NCBI GenBank assembly: GCA_017455065.1
Contig: JAFTBU010000007.1
Coordinates: forward strand, 1 to 33,321
DNA length: 33,321 nucleotides
Reading direction: 5' to 3'
Source of the DNA: Bacteroidales bacterium
Lineage (GTDB): Bacteria > Bacteroidota > Bacteroidia > Bacteroidales > UBA932
In this document: piece after piece, positions 10,571 to 32,563 of the stretch
How positions within the stretch are numbered: the stretch's first letter is position 1
How the letters are laid out: every line of letters begins with the position of its first letter
Program-made: the position numbers and the translations under genes
Notes under the pieces: generated by a model
The model's database searches: none
The model's input: the letters and a program-made list of their open reading frames with translations, nothing else
Told to the model about the DNA's origin: nothing

Positions 10571-11980
10571 TTAGAATTCAACTTCGAGGTTTTCGATCTC
10601 GACTGCCACCTGCTTGAGGAAACGGGTGGCCTCGCCGCCGTCTATGGCCCTGTGGTCATAGGTAAGGCTCAGGCCGAGATAAGGCACGAAGGCGTACACT
10701 CCGCCGCCGAGGTCCTTGGGTCTGGGGACTATGGTGCCCACGCCGAGGATGGCGCTCTGGGGCACGTTGATGATGGGGGTGAACCACTCCACTCCGTAGC
10801 CGCCGAGATTGGAGACCGTGAAGGAAGCCGCCTCGCTGGAGAGGAGGTCGGGGTTGATGCTGCCTTTCTTGCAGTCGTCGGCAACCTTCTTGAGCATCTT
10901 GCTGAGGCCTATGATATTGAGGTTTTCAGCGCCCTTGACGGCGGGGACCATCAGGCCGCGCTCGGTATCCACCGCGAGGCCGAGGTTGACCGTATTGAAC
11001 AGGCGCATGGCGTCTCCGAGGCAATGGGAATTGACGTTCGGGAATTTCTGCAGGGCCTTGATGACGGCGAAGCAGACGAAGTCGTTGATGGTGATGTTGG
11101 CGTCGATGCGGCCTTCTTCGAGGGCTTTCTTGGCCTTCTTGCGGAGAGCCTGTATCCTGCGGGCGTCAGCTCCGAGCATATGGGTGAGCTGGGCGCTGTT
11201 CTGCAGGGAGTTGTACATGGACTTGGCAATGAGTTTGCGCATGTTGGAGAGTTTCTCCACCCTGAACTCTTCGCCTTCGCCGGGGATGTCGCTGTGGTTG
11301 GGCTGCCATACCTTGAGGTCGGAACCCTTGACCGCTCCGCCGAGGCCGCTTCCCGCTGCGGGAGCCGCCTTGCCGCCTTCGGCCATCATGGCCTTGGCCA
11401 ATCCTGTCAGGTGCAATCCTGCGGCGGCCGCTTCCACATCGCGGGCGATGATGCGTCCGTAAGGGCCGCTGCCTGCGATCTGGTCGATGCTGAGGCCTTT
11501 CTCAGCGGCGATCCTGCGGGCACGGGGCGATGCCGGGGCACCCGCCACCGGTGCTGCGGAGGCTCCTTCCACCGCTGCTGCCGCGGAAGCTCCTGCCTCC
11601 GAAACCGTCTCGCTACGCTCGACCCCACCGTCCGCTTCGCTGCCGGTCCCCCCTCTTACCATGCCGAGGGTGGCAGGTGTTTCTGAGGCAGAGACCTCCG
11701 CGGCAGCGGCGCAGCCGGGAGCGAACTGCTCGAAGCTCTCGCCGGGCTTTCCTATCACCATCACGTTCGTGAGGACGGGTACTTCATCGCCGGCTTTGAA
11801 GAAGACAGCCAGCACGGTGCCTTCCACCTTGGCCTCTTCATCGAATGAAGCCTTGTCAGTTTCATAGCTGAAAAGTATGTCTCCTACGGCTACCTGGTCA
11901 CCTACATTCTTCTTGAATTCGGTCATTATGCAACTTTCGACCGACTGGCCCTGTTTGGGCATGATCACGACTTCTGCCAT
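10571..11980 (-). CDS. Dihydrolipoamide acyltransferase (E2) carrying an inserted repeat in its linker
   Basis: 469 residues. An N-terminal lipoyl domain (1-85) carries the lipoylated Lys43 in ETDKA. A long Ala-rich linker follows (about 88-150), then a peripheral-subunit-binding domain (about 150-184, SPRARRIAAEKG...GRI). The catalytic acyltransferase domain is C-terminal, with His443 in DHRAIDG. The enzyme transfers the acyl group from lipoamide to CoA and forms the core of the complex. I chose the ATG at 11980, since MAEVVIMPKQGQ is the standard lipoyl-domain start; an upstream in-frame ATG would run into GH78. Residues 102-126 (with GGVERSETV) are encoded by a dispersed DNA element and are unlike the rest of the linker. 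A -7 box lies 27-34 bases upstream. Confidence 0.92.
   Translation of the reverse strand: MAEVVIMPKQGQSVESCIMTEFKKNVGDQVAVGDILFSYETDKASFDEEAKVEGTVLAVFFKAGDEVPVLTNVMVIGKPGESFEQFAPGCAAAAEVSASETPATLGMVRGGTGSEADGGVERSETVSEAGASAAAAVEGASAAPVAGAPASPRARRIAAEKGLSIDQIAGSGPYGRIIARDVEAAAAGLHLTGLAKAMMAEGGKAAPAAGSGLGGAVKGSDLKVWQPNHSDIPGEGEEFRVEKLSNMRKLIAKSMYNSLQNSAQLTHMLGADARRIQALRKKAKKALEEGRIDANITINDFVCFAVIKALQKFPNVNSHCLGDAMRLFNTVNLGLAVDTERGLMVPAVKGAENLNIIGLSKMLKKVADDCKKGSINPDLLSSEAASFTVSNLGGYGVEWFTPIINVPQSAILGVGTIVPRPKDLGGGVYAFVPYLGLSLTYDHRAIDGGEATRFLKQVAVEIENLEVEF
11604..11675. repeat. 72-bp dispersed element, copy 1, in frame inside the E2 linker
   Basis: These 72 bases match 27205-27275 at about nine positions in ten by eye: I count six substitutions and one single-C indel. 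The copy here is a multiple of three long and keeps the E2 frame open. The other copy is in non-coding DNA and its frame is broken. The 5' part (ACCGTCTCGCT) and the central CGCTTCGCT give partial self-complementarity. Confidence 0.8.
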
Positions 11981-26088: not shown

Positions 26089-26277
26089 CTCTCCTCTGCC
26101 GGTCCCTTTCGCCCTGTCACCCTCCCTGCCGCCGCCCTTCTACCCTTCCGCCCTCCCCGGAGCCTCTCACCGTCAACGTCGTCATCGCTGCGCGATAACT
26201 TGCTGCCAGTGGCTTGAACGTGAAATTCGGTGGCTGAGTGAATCGGCCTTCCAGGGCACTCCTGGGTAGGTCAATCC

Positions 26278-26359
26278 CGCCATCGAGGCCAAAAAGGGGT
26301 CGATGGCGGAGCCGACCGCGCTTGTACGCATTTCTGTTGGGGGTACGCTCCGCCATCGA
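26278..26359. repeat. Three-arm inverted repeat (competing hairpins)
   Basis: CGCCATCGA (26278-26286) can pair with TCGATGGCG (26300-26308). The same middle arm, extended to TCGATGGCGGAGC (26300-26312), is a perfect 13-bp complement of GCTCCGCCATCGA (26347-26359). The middle arm can therefore choose between two partners. Confidence 0.7.
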
Positions 26360-26421
26360 TTTTCCAGCCGCCCCCACCGGGCCACGCTTTTCTTCCCCTG
26401 CTATTCTCCCAGGCCCTTCGC

Positions 26422-26507
26422 GCTCCTACCGTCCCCGAACCTGCGGGAGAAAGCGCGTTTCCCGCCTATATCGCTCCCACCGTCCCCGATCTATGGACGG
26501 TAGGAGC
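26422..26507. repeat. 13-bp perfect inverted repeat with a related direct repeat
   Basis: GCTCCTACCGTCC (26422-26434) and GGACGGTAGGAGC (26495-26507) are exact complements. A near copy of the left arm, GCTCCCACCGTCCCCGA, begins at about 26473 inside the loop. Confidence 0.65.
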
Positions 26508-26588
26508 ACCTGCCTACCACCACCGACACGCTGCGCCGTCAGCGGGAATTTCAGCCCTTGGGCCAGGGCATCCTCGCGGCCGATAGCA

Positions 26589-26638
26589 ACGGGCGGGCGA
26601 GGAGAGCACTCAAACATAGCTCACCGCAGCCCGCCCGT
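26589..26638. repeat. 10-bp perfect inverted repeat
   Basis: ACGGGCGGGC (26589-26598) and GCCCGCCCGT (26629-26638) are exact complements around a 30-base loop. Confidence 0.6.
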
Positions 26639-26640
26639 AA

Positions 26641-26716
26641 CCGCCGCAGGGCGTATATTGCGGCGGTGGTGCCGTGGCGTGACTCGCCGCCGCATCGCGT
26701 ATACTGCGGCGGCGAG
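26641..26716. repeat. Tandem pair of GC-rich hairpins sharing a loop sequence
   Basis: First hairpin: CCGCCGCA (26641-26648) with TGCGGCGG (26659-26666). Second: CTCGCCGCCGCA (26683-26694) with TGCGGCGGCGAG (26705-26716). Both loops are 10 bases and contain GCGTATA, so the two look like copies of one short palindromic unit. Confidence 0.7.
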
Positions 26717-26732
26717 GGCCTGTTTTGACATT

Positions 26733-26790
26733 CGTCAGCCCACCGACCATGGCTTCTACGGCCCTCCAGAGGGGTTCCGCTGGGCTGACG
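26733..26790. repeat. 10-bp perfect inverted repeat
   Basis: CGTCAGCCCA (26733-26742) and TGGGCTGACG (26781-26790) are exact complements. A further CGTCAGCCC follows near 26808. Confidence 0.6.
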
Positions 26791-27204
26791 CCCCCAGTTT
26801 GGCCTCGTCAGCCCGGTCACTCTTGCTTCCAGGCACTTCTGTTGGGGGTACGGCGGTCCTCTGTATTTCGAGTTGAACCTAATGTTTGAGTTAAACCTTA
26901 ATGAACATCACGGGAGCACGAGGGTGCCAAAGAGCGGCCTCCAGGGGGTGGTCGCGCTCCCGGTCTCGGCTCCGACCCGACACCTGGAGCACGGGGATGC
27001 CCTACAGCGCACTCTGGGAGGGGGTGGCGCTCCCGCCCCGTTCATTAACGGCAGTACCGGTTAAGCAGCGCCCTTAAGGAGATGGAACTGCGGCCGTACC
27101 GCCCTGGGATGCTGCCAGGGCGCGACGCATGGCACATTCCGGAGGAGGCCGTCGGGGACTGGACAGGCAGGCTGAGGCTGAGACGGGGCAGCCCGGGGCC
27201 GGGG

Positions 27205-27275
27205 ACCGTCTCGCTGCGCTCGACCCCACCGTTCGCTTCGCTCACGGTCCCCCTCTTACGTTGCCGAGGGTGGCA
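27205..27275. repeat. 71-bp dispersed element, copy 2, intergenic
   Basis: Near copy of the segment inserted in the E2 linker, one C shorter in a C-run, so the peptide frame is broken here. GGGGACCGT (27201-27209) and ACGGTCCCC (27244-27252) form a perfect inverted repeat spanning most of the element. Imperfectly complementary flanks (AGGCTGAGGCTG... near 27170 and ...CCCAGCCCCAGCCT near 27310) make a larger palindrome around it. Confidence 0.8.
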
Positions 27276-27371
27276 CGGGTCCCGGCCCCGACTGCCCAGC
27301 CCCAGCCTCTCCTTCCCATCCTATTCGCCCGGACACCCACCAGTCTATATTATTGCCAGGATGGCCAGAAG

Positions 27372-27528: not shown

Positions 27529-30500
27529 ATGAAGAAAATACTTGGACTTGACCTTGGGACTGCCAGTATCGGCTGGGCTGTCGTCAATTCAGCGGACAAA
27601 TCCGATGAGAAGTCTAGCATCATAGCATGTGGTTCACGTGTCATTCCACTGACAGTGGATGAAAAGGATAGCTTTGAAAAAGGCAAAGCTATAACGACTA
27701 ATGCTGACCGTAGGCTTAAACGCGGAATGAGGCGCAACCTCCAAAGGACTAAGCAGCGGAGAGACAATCTTGTGGAAAGGATGATCAAGGAAGGATGGAT
27801 CGAATCCTCAAAAGCACTGAGTGAAAAAGGCCCAGGAAGCACGTATGAGACAATTCGCCTGAGGGCCCATGCTGCATCTGAAGAAATAACTCTCCAAGAT
27901 TTGGCCAAAGTTCTGCTTTCTATAAGTAAGAAACGCGGATACAAGAGTTCTCGCAAGACTGATTCAAGTGAAGATGGCCAATTGATTGATGGTATGCAGA
28001 TTGCAAAGGAGTTGCACTCATCTGGCATGACCCCGGCGCAATACTGCGAACAGGCCATGTCAAAAGGGAAATCACCTCGTTTTGACTTTTATCGATCTGA
28101 TCTTGAACAGGAATTTTCACGTATATGGGATTTCCAAAAGACTTTTTATCCTGAAACCCTGACAGATGAATTCAAGAAACAACTGGAAAGACAAGGAAAA
28201 GCTGGAACGTCGAAAATCTTCCTTGCCAAGTATGGGATATTCTCGGCAGATAATAAGGGTAAGGATAGGAAAAAGACTTCTATAGAGTGGCGAATCGCGG
28301 GATTAAGCCAGAAGCTGACTCCAGATGTACTTGCATACGTAGTCTCTGATCTGAGAGGCGAAATAGCAAAATCGAGCGGATATCTAGGGGAAATAAGCGA
28401 CCGTAGTAAAGAAATTTTCTTTAACGGAGAGACCGTCGGTCAATATATCTACCGAAATATACAGGCAAACCCACATTTCAGCACAAAAAACAAAGTCTTT
28501 TATCGTCAAGATTATATTGATGAGTTTAACAAGATTTGGGAAACGCAATCCCATTATCATCCCGAATTGACTTCAGAATTACGGAAAGATATCTCGGATA
28601 CTATTCTATTCTATCAACGTCCTCTGAAATCTCAGAAAGGGCTGGTATCATTCTGCGAATTTGAGAGTCACCCCATCCAGGTAATAGTTGACGGGAAGAA
28701 GAAGACCAAAATGACGGGAAGCCGGGTCGCACCAAGATCCTCTCTTATGTTCCAGGAGTTCAAGATTTGGCAGATTCTTAATAACATCAGGATATATGAT
28801 GGATTGAACGAAAATGAGCGCCCTTTGTCTCGAGATGAAGCTAACTCATTATCAAGAAGCCTGTCGATTAAATCCAAAATGACACAAACGGAGGTTCTTA
28901 AGTCACTAGGACTGAACCCCAGAAGGTATAAACTGAATTATAAGGAAATCGAGGGAAACACAACGTTAAACGCTTTCTACACTAAGTATCTCGAAATAGT
29001 CGACATCTCGGGTCATGGAGAATACGATATCAACAAAATGGCTTATGACGAATTGATTTCCCTGGTCAAAGATGTTTTCTCTGCCCTTGGATGCAGGGCA
29101 AATATCTTTACATTTAATACTGAGTTACGAAAGGAAGAGTATGAGCAGCAGCCTCTGTTCAAGTTATGGCACTTGGCGTACTCATACGAGGGTGATAATT
29201 CCAATACCGGAAATGAATCTCTTACAAGAAAAATATCTGCTATAACAGGACTCGATCCGGAATATGCAAAAATTCTATCAAGTATCTCTTTCAAGGAAGA
29301 CTATGCGTCTGTAAGCCATAAGGCTATTTCTAAGATTCTTCCTTTTTTAAAAGAAGGTTATAAGTATAGCGAAGCATGCCAGATGGCTGGGTATAACCAC
29401 TCTCACTCACTTTCTGCTGAAGAACTTGAAAAGAAAGAATTACAGGAAAGACTTGAATTGCTTCCAAAGGGCAGCCTTCGTAATCCGGTAGTAGAAAAGA
29501 TCATTAATCAGATGATCAATGTTGTCAATGCGGCTGCTGAGACGTTTGGCAAACCCGATGAGATACATATAGAATTAGCACGAGAACTCAAACAGAATGC
29601 CAGGGATAGGGAGAAAGCCACGGCTGATATTCAGTCCAATAATAAACGGAATGAGGAAATAAGCAATATTCTCAGGGAGCAGTTTGGTCTGAAGAGTGTC
29701 AGAAAAACAGATATTCTGAGATATCGGCTTTACGATGAACTTAAGGAGAACGGTTACAAGACCCTTTATTCAAATAAATACATATCACCTGGACAATTGT
29801 TCTCGAAGGATATTGATATTGAGCACATCATTCCTCAGGCGCTGCTATTTGATGATTCTTTTGCAAACAAAACTCTCGAGTTTAAAGACATCAATATCGA
29901 GAAAGGGAGCAGGACAGCCAACGACTTCGTTAAAGACAAATACGGAGATGATTATTATACCCAATACCGATTACGTATTGATGATCTCGTCAATAGAAAC
30001 GTTATCAGTGAACGGAAACGCAAACTTCTCTTGATGACCGAAGCTGATATCCCCTCCGGATTTATCGACAGGGACTTAAGGGATTCACAATATATTGCGA
30101 AGAAATCCCGTGAACTTTTGCAGGATTATGTAAAAGTCGTAATGCCTACAACAGGTTCTGTTACCAGCAGGCTCAGGGAGGAATGGCAGTTGGTCGATGT
30201 CATGAAGGAGATCAACTATGCCAAATATGATAAAGCTGGGAAGACATATCTGGAAGAAGATCAGGATGGAAGAATAATCCCTAAAATTTCAGACTGGACA
30301 AAGAGGAATGATCATCGACATCATGCCATGGATGCTATCACTATCGCATTCACAAAACCTGAGCATATTAGGATTCTTAATCATCTTAACGCAAAGACGG
30401 ATAAGGATTCATCGTATTATGGGTTATGGCAAAATCAAACGACCATCCTTGCAAATAAAAAGCGGATATTCACGCCTCCCATGCCTCTTGATGATCTTAG

Positions 30501-31650
30501 AAAGGAAGTCAAGATGCATCTTGATTCCACCCTCGTTTCTATCAAAGCCAAGAATAAGGTTGTCACTAAGAATATTAACAAAACAATGTCTGCCGATGGC
30601 GTCAGGCGCGTCGTAGAACTGACACCTCGCGGTGCCCTACACAAAGAACAAGTATATGGACAGCGCAAAAGATATAAGACATACGATGTGCCTGTCGGAG
30701 CAAAAATGACGCATGATGTAATCACGACCATTGCTTCGCAGAAAATCAGAGAAGCTCTTCAGGCAAGACTCGAGTCTTTTGGTGGCGATCCCCAAAAAGC
30801 CTTTACTGGCAAAAATGCACTTGACAAGAATCCGGTTTATATTGATGATTCTCATTCACAAGTGGTTCCATCCAAAGTTAAGTGCGTCTGCTTCGAGACA
30901 TACTACAGTATACGAAAGGAGATTGGCCCTGATTTAAGTGTCGATAAGATAATAGACAAAAAAGCCCGCACCAGGATAAAAGAAAGAATTGCTGAATACA
31001 ATGGTGATGTACGGAAGGCCTTGTCCAATCTTGAAGAGAATCCAATCTATCTTGATGACGAAAAGACGATACCCATCAAAAGGGTTTCGATTCGTGAAAA
31101 TTTCGATTTGTGTGCTATCAGGAGCAAACGCGATAACAACGGTGAACTGATTACAGACTCGGACGGGAATCCAATACCCAATGACTTCGTAAACCTCCGA
31201 AACAATCACCATGTCGCCCTATATAAAGATGAGAGCGGTCGTATTCAGGAAGTAGTCGTGTCTATGTTTGAGGCATTGAACCGTATCAATCTCGGGATGC
31301 CCATCGTTGACAAGGACTATCATTCGGATTTGGGATGGTCATTCTTGTTCAGCATGAAAGTCAACGAGATGTTCGTATTCCCTGATGACAAAACTGGATT
31401 TGACCCGAGAGAGATAGACCTTTTAGATTCCAAGAATGCGGCAATAATAAGTCCGCATCTATTCAGGGTCCAGAAATTGAGTAGCAAGGATTATTGGTTT
31501 AGGCATCATCTTGAGACCCAGATTGTTGATGATAAAGCGCTTCGGGAAATCACATGGAAACGCATTATAAGTAGTCAATTGATGGAGAGAGTAGTCAAAG
31601 TTAGAATTGATCACCTTGGACAAATCGTCTCAATAGGAGAATATGATTAA
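27529..31650 (+). CDS. cas9: Cas9, type II-C effector nuclease
   Basis: 1373 residues. RuvC-I is at the N-terminus (LGLDLGTASIGWA, Asp8), followed by the arginine-rich bridge helix (ADRRLKRGMRRNLQRTKQRR, about 59-80). RuvC-II has Glu682 in IHIELARE. The HNH domain has His766 in IEHIIPQALLFDDSFANKTL, and RuvC-III has His932 and Asp935 in RHHAMDAITIAFT. All catalytic positions are kept, so it should cut both DNA strands, guided by crRNA:tracrRNA. The absence of csn2 and cas4 and the cas9-cas1-cas2 order make it type II-C. The chain is longer than the compact Neisseria-type enzymes but fits the large Bacteroidetes group. The 3' end overlaps cas1 by 8 bp. Base composition is clearly more AT-rich than the metabolic core. 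Confidence 0.96.
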   Translation: MKKILGLDLGTASIGWAVVNSADKSDEKSSIIACGSRVIPLTVDEKDSFEKGKAITTNADRRLKRGMRRNLQRTKQRRDNLVERMIKEGWIESSKALSEKGPGSTYETIRLRAHAASEEITLQDLAKVLLSISKKRGYKSSRKTDSSEDGQLIDGMQIAKELHSSGMTPAQYCEQAMSKGKSPRFDFYRSDLEQEFSRIWDFQKTFYPETLTDEFKKQLERQGKAGTSKIFLAKYGIFSADNKGKDRKKTSIEWRIAGLSQKLTPDVLAYVVSDLRGEIAKSSGYLGEISDRSKEIFFNGETVGQYIYRNIQANPHFSTKNKVFYRQDYIDEFNKIWETQSHYHPELTSELRKDISDTILFYQRPLKSQKGLVSFCEFESHPIQVIVDGKKKTKMTGSRVAPRSSLMFQEFKIWQILNNIRIYDGLNENERPLSRDEANSLSRSLSIKSKMTQTEVLKSLGLNPRRYKLNYKEIEGNTTLNAFYTKYLEIVDISGHGEYDINKMAYDELISLVKDVFSALGCRANIFTFNTELRKEEYEQQPLFKLWHLAYSYEGDNSNTGNESLTRKISAITGLDPEYAKILSSISFKEDYASVSHKAISKILPFLKEGYKYSEACQMAGYNHSHSLSAEELEKKELQERLELLPKGSLRNPVVEKIINQMINVVNAAAETFGKPDEIHIELARELKQNARDREKATADIQSNNKRNEEISNILREQFGLKSVRKTDILRYRLYDELKENGYKTLYSNKYISPGQLFSKDIDIEHIIPQALLFDDSFANKTLEFKDINIEKGSRTANDFVKDKYGDDYYTQYRLRIDDLVNRNVISERKRKLLLMTEADIPSGFIDRDLRDSQYIAKKSRELLQDYVKVVMPTTGSVTSRLREEWQLVDVMKEINYAKYDKAGKTYLEEDQDGRIIPKISDWTKRNDHRHHAMDAITIAFTKPEHIRILNHLNAKTDKDSSYYGLWQNQTTILANKKRIFTPPMPLDDLRKEVKMHLDSTLVSIKAKNKVVTKNINKTMSADGVRRVVELTPRGALHKEQVYGQRKRYKTYDVPVGAKMTHDVITTIASQKIREALQARLESFGGDPQKAFTGKNALDKNPVYIDDSHSQVVPSKVKCVCFETYYSIRKEIGPDLSVDKIIDKKARTRIKERIAEYNGDVRKALSNLEENPIYLDDEKTIPIKRVSIRENFDLCAIRSKRDNNGELITDSDGNPIPNDFVNLRNNHHVALYKDESGRIQEVVVSMFEALNRINLGMPIVDKDYHSDLGWSFLFSMKVNEMFVFPDDKTGFDPREIDLLDSKNAAIISPHLFRVQKLSSKDYWFRHHLETQIVDDKALREITWKRIISSQLMERVVKVRIDHLGQIVSIGEYD

Positions 31651-32563
31651 AAGAACCCTGTACTTCGGAAATCCGGCCTACCTCTCTTTGAGAAATGGAC
31701 AATTAGTCATCTCCAGACCCGATGACGGAGATCTTCTTCCGGATGACATAAATAAAATAATCAAGACCATCCCGATTGAAGATATCGGGGTGGTCATTTT
31801 GGATAACAGGCAGATTACGCTGACCTCACTTGTTGTCTCAGCTCTTCTTGAGAATAATGTAGCCGTAGTCAGTTGTAATGATAAATCTATGCCTACAGGA
31901 CTGCTTCTTCCTCTTGACGCAAATGGAATACAGAGTGAACGTTTCAGAGATCAGATTGACGCCTCCCTGCCCCTGCGCAAACAGCTATGGCAACAGACGG
32001 TCGAGGCCAAAATACGGAACCAAGCCGCAGTGTTGAAATATGTATCCGGAGAAGATGCCAGGAATATGCTTATATGGGCAGGCAGCGTGAGGAGCGGAGA
32101 TTCAGATAACATGGAAGCGAGAGCTGCTGCTTTCTACTGGAAGAATGTTTTCCCGGAGCTAGAGTCTTTTACCAGAGATCGCTTTGGTCAATCACCCAAT
32201 AATCTGCTAAATTATGGTTACGCTATCCTGCGAGCCGTTGTCGCCCGCTCTCTTGTTGGATCAGGACTGCTTCCGACCATGGGCATACATCACCACAACC
32301 GTTATAATGCATATTGCCTCGCAGATGACATCATGGAGCCTTACCGTCCATACGTCGACCGGCTTGTCGTTGATATAGTAGCAAAAAATCCATGTCCTCA
32401 ATTGACTAAAGAGACCAAGACCACTCTGCTCAGCATTCCTGTTCTCGATGTCGAGATTGATGGCCATACCAGCCCTTTGATGATTGCCGCAACCACAACA
32501 TCTTCCTCTCTTTGCAAGTGTTTCTCTGGAATCAGCAGGAAAATACTATATCCAGAACTATGA
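31643..32563 (+). CDS. cas1: Cas1 integrase
   Basis: 306 residues, typical length for type II Cas1. The N-terminal beta domain (MIKRTLYFGNPAYLS, then LVVSALLENNVAVVSCND with the usual 'which allele was seen' turn) leads into the helical catalytic domain. The metal ligands are recognisable: Glu158 in NMEARAAAFYW, a His in GIHHHNRYN (about 217), and the acidic pair in LADDIMEPYRP (about 228 and 232). With Cas2 it inserts new spacers. It starts inside the end of cas9 and shares its stop with the start of cas2 (ATGA), so the three genes form one translationally coupled unit. Confidence 0.95.
   Translation: MIKRTLYFGNPAYLSLRNGQLVISRPDDGDLLPDDINKIIKTIPIEDIGVVILDNRQITLTSLVVSALLENNVAVVSCNDKSMPTGLLLPLDANGIQSERFRDQIDASLPLRKQLWQQTVEAKIRNQAAVLKYVSGEDARNMLIWAGSVRSGDSDNMEARAAAFYWKNVFPELESFTRDRFGQSPNNLLNYGYAILRAVVARSLVGSGLLPTMGIHHHNRYNAYCLADDIMEPYRPYVDRLVVDIVAKNPCPQLTKETKTTLLSIPVLDVEIDGHTSPLMIAATTTSSSLCKCFSGISRKILYPEL

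Follow-up and report, generated by a model that had tools for sequence, protein, structure and literature searches.

The closest described counterparts of the element reported here are the Rickettsia palindromic elements (RPEs), which the sections of the literature drawn on portray as units of about 100-150 bp that fold into a long stem-loop and occur both between genes and, in frame, within them (Ogata et al. 2000, 2002, via PMC2229807, PMC10969869, PMC3767692). In R. conorii, nearly half of the RPEs are described as inserted into ORFs (PMC10969869), and truB and uvrB carry RPE or RPE-type REP inserts (PMC3733652). In Rickettsia, each orthologue is described as carrying its insert at the same locus (PMC3767692). 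A second group, the CGTC REPs, is reported from the Bacteroidetes as a phylum and lacks a dedicated transposase (Di Nocera 2013, PMC3733652). According to the same excerpt, REPs measure 20-40 bp, and those of the CGTC type comprise a single stem of 8-9 bp with a loop of 4-5 bases and, in most cases, a CCA tail. Furthermore, template switching is documented, in the part of the source used, to homogenize the arms and invert the spacers of inverted repeats in yeast genes, and is known from bacteria and phages (PMC8604942).

Here, we analyzed a window of 33,321 nucleotides (the whole stretch of DNA under study) from a Bacteroidales genome, together with related genomes. The repeat found in it is very probably a non-autonomous, protein-invading palindromic element of ~130 bp, which resides mainly in one genus of gut Bacteroidales, resembles RPEs, and has arms that are kept complementary by template switching. 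A literature search limited to open-licence papers returned no description of such an element in Bacteroidales, including among intragenic repeats of rumen Bacteroidales.

The likeness to RPEs, drawn already in the initial annotation of this DNA, holds for size, for the stem-loop with inverted ends, and for in-frame insertion into unrelated genes; the comparison is one of published descriptions, as far as excerpted, and not of sequences. Host gene types in common with RPEs and intragenic REPs are uvrA, polA, and truB. The Bacteroidales element differs in occurring in another phylum, in having empty sites in E2, UvrA, and XerC among congeners (in E2, both orientations as well), and in its copy-specific, self-complementary arms that sometimes extend into host codons, a feature absent from the RPE descriptions consulted. 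We thus liken it to RPEs in its way of working, set it apart by its arms and its site polymorphism among congeners, and do not assign it to them.

With the CGTC and GTAG REPs, as far as the excerpt describes them, it has in common dispersed palindromes and intragenic copies, many of them in replication and repair genes (PMC3733652). Its core starts with a mostly conserved CGTC, which lies inside the arms, while the tag of CGTC REPs is terminal and unpaired. A unit of ~130 bp with several helices departs from the 20-40 bp, single-stem, CCA-tailed form described for the CGTC type, and in the 29 Y1_Tnp loci searched the element does not flank a RAYT gene in the manner of GTAG REPs. The template-switching source (PMC8604942) deals with short inverted repeats in yeast genes, whereas the repeat studied here is brought in by a dispersed element. 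Long inverted repeats in protein-coding genes, with both arms coding, are also described from the mitochondria of Nematomorpha, but these are organellar and the excerpt mentions no mobile core (PMC6649704).

Two copies of the element in the window

The window holds two copies of the element (Table 1). Positions 11604-11675 and 27205-27275, annotated initially as a 72-base repeat with six substitutions and one indel, do differ in the alignment by exactly 6 substitutions and 1 gap. The first copy is read in frame by the gene for the E2 acyltransferase, whose protein contains the Pfam domains Biotin_lipoyl (residues 4-75), E3_binding (149-183), and 2-oxoacid_dh (238-466). As the annotation had proposed, the insert lies in the linker between the lipoyl and E3-binding domains, where the core is translated from the minus strand as ATLGMVRGGTGSEADGGVERSETV. 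A covariance model of the element matches this copy over 11576-11708 with an E-value of 3.7e-33. The second copy was likewise correctly taken as non-coding, being intergenic with no ORF running through it with at least 40 aa on each side.

Table 1. Features of the two element copies in the window
Feature	Position	Strand	Evidence or remark
Host gene of copy 1: E2 (2-oxoacid dehydrogenase acyltransferase), 469 aa	10574..11980	-	Pfam
Element core, copy 1	11602..11680	+	own-genome DNA search, nhmmer E 3e-19
Left arm, copy 1 (also E2-coding)	11562..11605	+	75% complementary to 11679-11722
Right arm, copy 1 (also E2-coding)	11679..11722	+	inverted repeat with 11562-11605
Element core, copy 2 (intergenic, upstream of cas9-like ORF 27529-31650)	27204..27280	+	DNA search
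Left arm, copy 2	27174..27202	+	76% complementary to 27281-27309
Right arm, copy 2	27281..27309	+	inverted repeat with 27174-27202

The arm complementarity of the E2 copy reaches a score of 23, whereas the maximum in 2000 synonymous-codon reshuffles was 22 (0/2000 reach 23). The folding of the single strands, each taken alone, was unremarkable against shuffles (z -1.81 to -0.55). The repeat is dispersed, as first described, but the 72 bases alone do not make up the palindrome; they are its inner part, and the palindrome is formed by copy-specific arms around them.

Downstream of the second copy, at window positions 27529-32563, a Cas9-like ORF of 1373 aa is followed by an ORF of 306 aa, by eye probably a type II CRISPR locus.

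Architecture of the element

The element of ~130 bp consists of a conserved core of ~80 bases flanked by arms of ~20-25 bases or more that form inverted repeats. The core contains small predicted hairpins; sequence and length are variable in the middle one, while the last one (CCCTC...GAGGG, followed by TGGCA) is conserved. Most copies keep a CGTC motif at the 5' side of the core, located within the arms.

Outside the source genome, the arms are mostly complementary within a copy and different from copy to copy. More specifically, a perfect match of at least 10 bases between a copy's own arms was present in 73 of 109 distinct copies, compared with 59 of 2163 cross-copy pairs (2.7%). In a comparison of the arms of 28 copies of other genomes, the medians were 18.0 within copies and 8.0 across copies. 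In the source genome, such own-arm matches occur in 15 of 24 copies, compared with 131 of 552 cross-copy pairs, which indicates that the arms there are partly common to the copies, a pattern that an ordinary repeat burst would produce. Since the inner arms are also alike within some genomes, the element probably takes part of the arm along when it moves. Arm matches of at least 10 bases that lie more than 25 bases away from the core were found in 7/109 copies (cross-copy pairs, 32/2163, 1.5%), so that an extension of the arms into the host is a minority trait.

In six copies of the source genome (L015, L016, L022, L023, L030, L035), the 5' arm appears by eye to be repeated upstream of the core in a slippage-like manner. 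This genome also carries other dispersed repeat families, such as a palindrome around ACGGGCGGGC...GCCCGCCCGT and a tandem repeat of ~53 bases with CCCTTCGGTAGC. Repeat families of this kind adjoin element copies at window positions 26155-27154, L016 2186-3202, and L040 2399-3378, several of them near contig ends.

In-frame copies in other host genes

The initial annotation had proposed to look for copies inside further genes, and many were found in Pfam-supported ORFs. We surveyed 30 genomes at their best locus, together with another 40 loci from five genomes, for spanning ORFs, defined as ORFs that cross the element and continue for at least 40 residues to either side of it; a Pfam family was accepted at E <= 1e-5. 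Of 60 spanning ORFs submitted, 50 matched a family (39/40, 10/10, and 1/10 by batch); the 10/10 batch comprised nine ORFs from other genomes and the DnaX of the source genome. The ten ORFs with no family were L360, L367, and eight of the source genome, in which only E2 and DnaX are supported as hosts among the spanning ORFs put to Pfam. In the 40-locus sample, a Pfam-supported ORF spans the main copy at 32 loci, an ORF with no Pfam match was found at two, the main copy is not spanned by any ORF at five, and at one a methyltransferase ORF (L365) spans a partial match alone; this sample was taken from the top of a score-sorted list, and its in-gene share may therefore be too high.

The host proteins include DNA polymerase I, DnaX, UvrA, an XerC-like tyrosine recombinase, RNase R, and FtsK. 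Others are methionine synthase (MetH), chorismate synthase, TruB, MiaA, PurH, QueH, DsbD, glycosidases of families GH3 and GH92, a sugar-nucleotide dehydratase, and rRNA methyltransferases. The finer gene names (XerC, IspE, HemW, MtaB, GltD) go beyond the matched Pfam families, which are broader, and were assigned by eye. Insertions inside genes occur in both orientations, and the reading frames of the core tend to be open (on average 4.5 of 6, compared with 3.7 for shuffled cores). Judging from the reading frames, the inserted DNA is probably translated and extra protein stretches are made, and the encoded peptide is most likely neutral baggage.

Two ORFs contain two copies each: the methionine synthase of L359 (1378-1460 and 2437-2519), and an ORF of L311 (1528-1606 and 1720-1799) that resembles the TldD-like protein of L329.

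The E2 linker across congeners

From 90 E2 loci, 85 linkers were obtained (L077, L083, L154, L155, and L164 gave no usable linker). Each was compared with the core at the DNA level and against 200 codon shuffles of its own. In this comparison, 28 of the 85 linkers (26 of 80 distinct ones) exceed all shuffles; in 16 of them the element is oriented as in the window gene, and in 12 it is reversed. The inserts are read in different frames, giving peptides such as ATLGTVRGG..GGVERSETV, SGHPRPDKREG.., TVSLRSTPP..PPLNVPRVA, and RPLPPAEPAG..GRGWPEV. The E2 linkers of other congeners are free of the element, many of them Ala/Pro-rich, and thus represent the empty sites that the annotation had suggested looking for.

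A quick LG+G4 tree was calculated from 65 E2 sequences with the linker removed. Fifteen far relatives were left out, L071, L073, L070, L072, and L075 were removed as their linkers duplicate named loci, and L135, L139, L144, and L151 were unscored. L104 was scored as a carrier from its protein, and the six B+ entries were assigned by protein motif, of which only L138 and L122 exceed all DNA shuffles. On this tree, presence of the element needs at least 10 changes, and orientation among the 30 scored carriers at least 8; by themselves, these counts do not separate gain from loss. A single clade of all carriers was rejected on the quick tree (AU p 4e-37), as was holding together the carriers of either orientation (AU p 2e-49 and 5e-50). 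The element did enter E2, but a single event, as originally implied, does not seem to fit carriers that are scattered over the tree in both orientations and several frames. L099 has a near-consensus copy, while the five sequences that form a clade with it are element-free, which favors a recent gain there.

Alternatively, the differences in orientation and frame at E2 and other common sites might reflect in-place inversions of one old insertion and not repeated insertions, a reading that we consider possible but somewhat improbable. Template switching inverts spacers between arms, according to the section of PMC8604942 used, and the sites in PolA, an IspE-like protein, and QueH are occupied in both orientations in different species. 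Furthermore, the sister E2 genes L113 and L152 (SH-aLRT 100) carry the element in opposite orientations with arm motifs that, by eye, are common to both. Against this, the two genes contain different inner hairpin variants, which makes a plain inversion insufficient there, and arms compared across orientations are scarcely more similar within clades (9.5 and 10.8) than between clades (8.3).

Distribution and the question of a mobilizing enzyme

A search of the complete source genome, another suggestion of the annotation, yielded 33 matches at E <= 3e-6, partial ones included, in 2.10 Mb on 64 contigs, a number far above chance expectation. Most of the copies there are intergenic; the gene-dwelling habit is visible in relatives. 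At the DNA level, the element was detected in the source genome and 18 of 36 congeners, and in 0/24 genomes of other families of the order. The covariance model detected it in 95 of 121 genomes of the genus (the source genome included), in 4 of 247 in the order (besides the source genome, one from a different genus of its family and two belonging to other families), and in 1 of 395 in the phylum (the source genome), where the counts of the large searches are lower bounds due to stricter filters and the scoring of only some candidates per genome. Carriage by viruses was rejected on the basis of exact matches to a 24-letter pattern, which were absent from viral contigs (0 matches).

Two genomes of other families of the order, G298 and G328 (loci L394, L395, L398, L399, and L401), contain 12 and 3 model matches, respectively, which may reflect transfer between families. 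Where E2 relatives have named records, these are for the most part MAGs with the title uncultured Bacteroidales or Bacteroidia, and many come from the rumen or other gut sites; among the carriers, one record (L120) bears the title Clostridiales.

This spread could also be that of a classical REP or MITE moved by a resident RAYT or other HUH transposase, with the arms as its terminal repeats. Y1_Tnp/RAYT-like proteins of ~300 aa are encoded in 15 of 22 congeners by the Pfam model (E <= 0.001) and in 19 of 22 by protein query, and the size and hairpins of the element suit a folded single-strand substrate. However, outside the source genome the arms are not terminal inverted repeats common to all copies, as those of MITEs are, and the source genome combines its 33 matches with just two weak RAYT-like matches, none by the Pfam model at E <= 0.001. 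Neither a transposase of the element nor a donor intermediate was found. In 29 Y1_Tnp loci (98 kb; 19 loci from the genus), a single element copy, ~0.9 kb from a RAYT-like ORF (L292), amounts to no enrichment and does not flank the gene, and a RAYT gene flanked by the element was rejected on this basis. Overall, we regard this explanation as unlikely.

Long Y1_Tnp/RAYT-like proteins (about 300-370 aa) are present in most congeners searched, in some cases several per genome (L279, L283, L284-L295).

Possible selection on an RNA fold

A further reading holds that the element is a structured RNA family whose arms and hairpins are kept by selection on the RNA fold, with the copies in genes as by-products. 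The architecture is conserved, and of 20 pairs predicted by RNAalifold on the element, 11 show compensatory changes on both sides. Mismatches in the arms speak against it: G-T and A-C mismatches are about equally frequent (29/26, 24/21, and 16/23), so that neither strand tolerates wobble pairs and there is no sign of one strand being kept as RNA. Likewise, the pairs of the outer stem switch from GC to CG with few GU steps, and copies lie inside genes in both orientations. The window contained no Rfam match at gathering score, and ten loci contained none at E <= 1 over the element; the only Rfam hit, suhB, fell below its cutoff and lies upstream of the copy in L013. Selection on an RNA fold was rejected as the main cause in view of the balanced mismatches, and we consider an RNA family very unlikely.

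Empty sites and the origin of the arms

Pairs of filled and empty genes from related genomes bear on where the arms come from. The UvrA gene is filled in G027 and empty in G023 (89% identical over the larger part), and the gene of the XerC-like recombinase is filled in G008 and empty in G015 (88% identical over the matched part). Best palindrome scores at the empty UvrA and XerC sites are 7 each, compared with 25.5 and 19.5 in the filled genes. The outer left arm in UvrA contains 14 bases that exactly reverse-complement the right-side codons for the conserved host residues SSRF. Together with the missing palindrome at the empty site, this indicates that the outer arm was copied from the host.

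The remaining cases are less direct. The arm in one GH92 gene (L349) mirrors, at 19 of 20 bases, the codons for RQQFQV. A second filled GH92 gene with a different arm (L313) shares R, Q, F, and Q of these residues, and the arm in L349 was probably derived from host codons. For XerC, 11 arm bases mirror the other side, and since only S and the first base of E are alignable with the empty relative, a host-derived arm is suggestive there. In RNase R, filled and empty linkers were both seen, and the flank is too variable to tell a host arm. Extension into host codons is therefore clear in one gene only, UvrA.

The same sites bear on whether the arms were copied at all, as the element might instead insert preferentially into the loops of existing palindromes. 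Most copies do lie between inverted repeats, but the palindrome-free empty sites of UvrA and XerC contradict this for both genes and leave the idea highly improbable. Finally, the repeat might be a protein motif common to two genes or an artefact of assembly. Nothing speaks for this beyond the common peptide GGVERSETV, and it is refuted and practically without probability given intergenic copies, copies on both strands and in several frames, and many separate assemblies, in agreement with the annotation's view of mobile or amplifying DNA. Neither of the outcomes it had named against itself, that all orthologues are filled with no further copies or that the repeat is an assembly artefact, came true.

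Proposed mechanism and meaning

We return to the reading of a protein-invading palindromic element with arms kept complementary by template switching. Such an element would move as a folded single strand mobilized in trans by an enzyme, and its insertions would persist if they leave the reading frame open and fall into a loop or linker that tolerates them, such as those of E2, PolA, and DnaX. After insertion, polymerase template switching across the hairpin would homogenize the arms and might now and then carry the palindrome further into the host gene. Such switching could also invert the core and thereby explain part of the orientation changes. Template switching covers the arms changing in step and their reach into the host; the spreading of the element lies beyond it. 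A more far-reaching version, which we put forward only tentatively, is that the hairpin copies adjacent host codons into its own opposite arm, that the palindrome grows into essential genes, and that the core is flipped or exchanged within standing arms, which would amount to a recurrent, transposase-free rewriting of linkers throughout the genus.

As a whole, palindromic in-frame gene invasion, best known from the obligate intracellular Rickettsiales, occurs here in gut Bacteroidales, where it can be traced site by site across many related species. Due to filled, empty, and reversed sites lying side by side among related species, the mode of insertion, the upkeep of the arms, and the cost to the protein become testable, as does the question of whether such insertion is a route to new linkers and loops in essential bacterial proteins.
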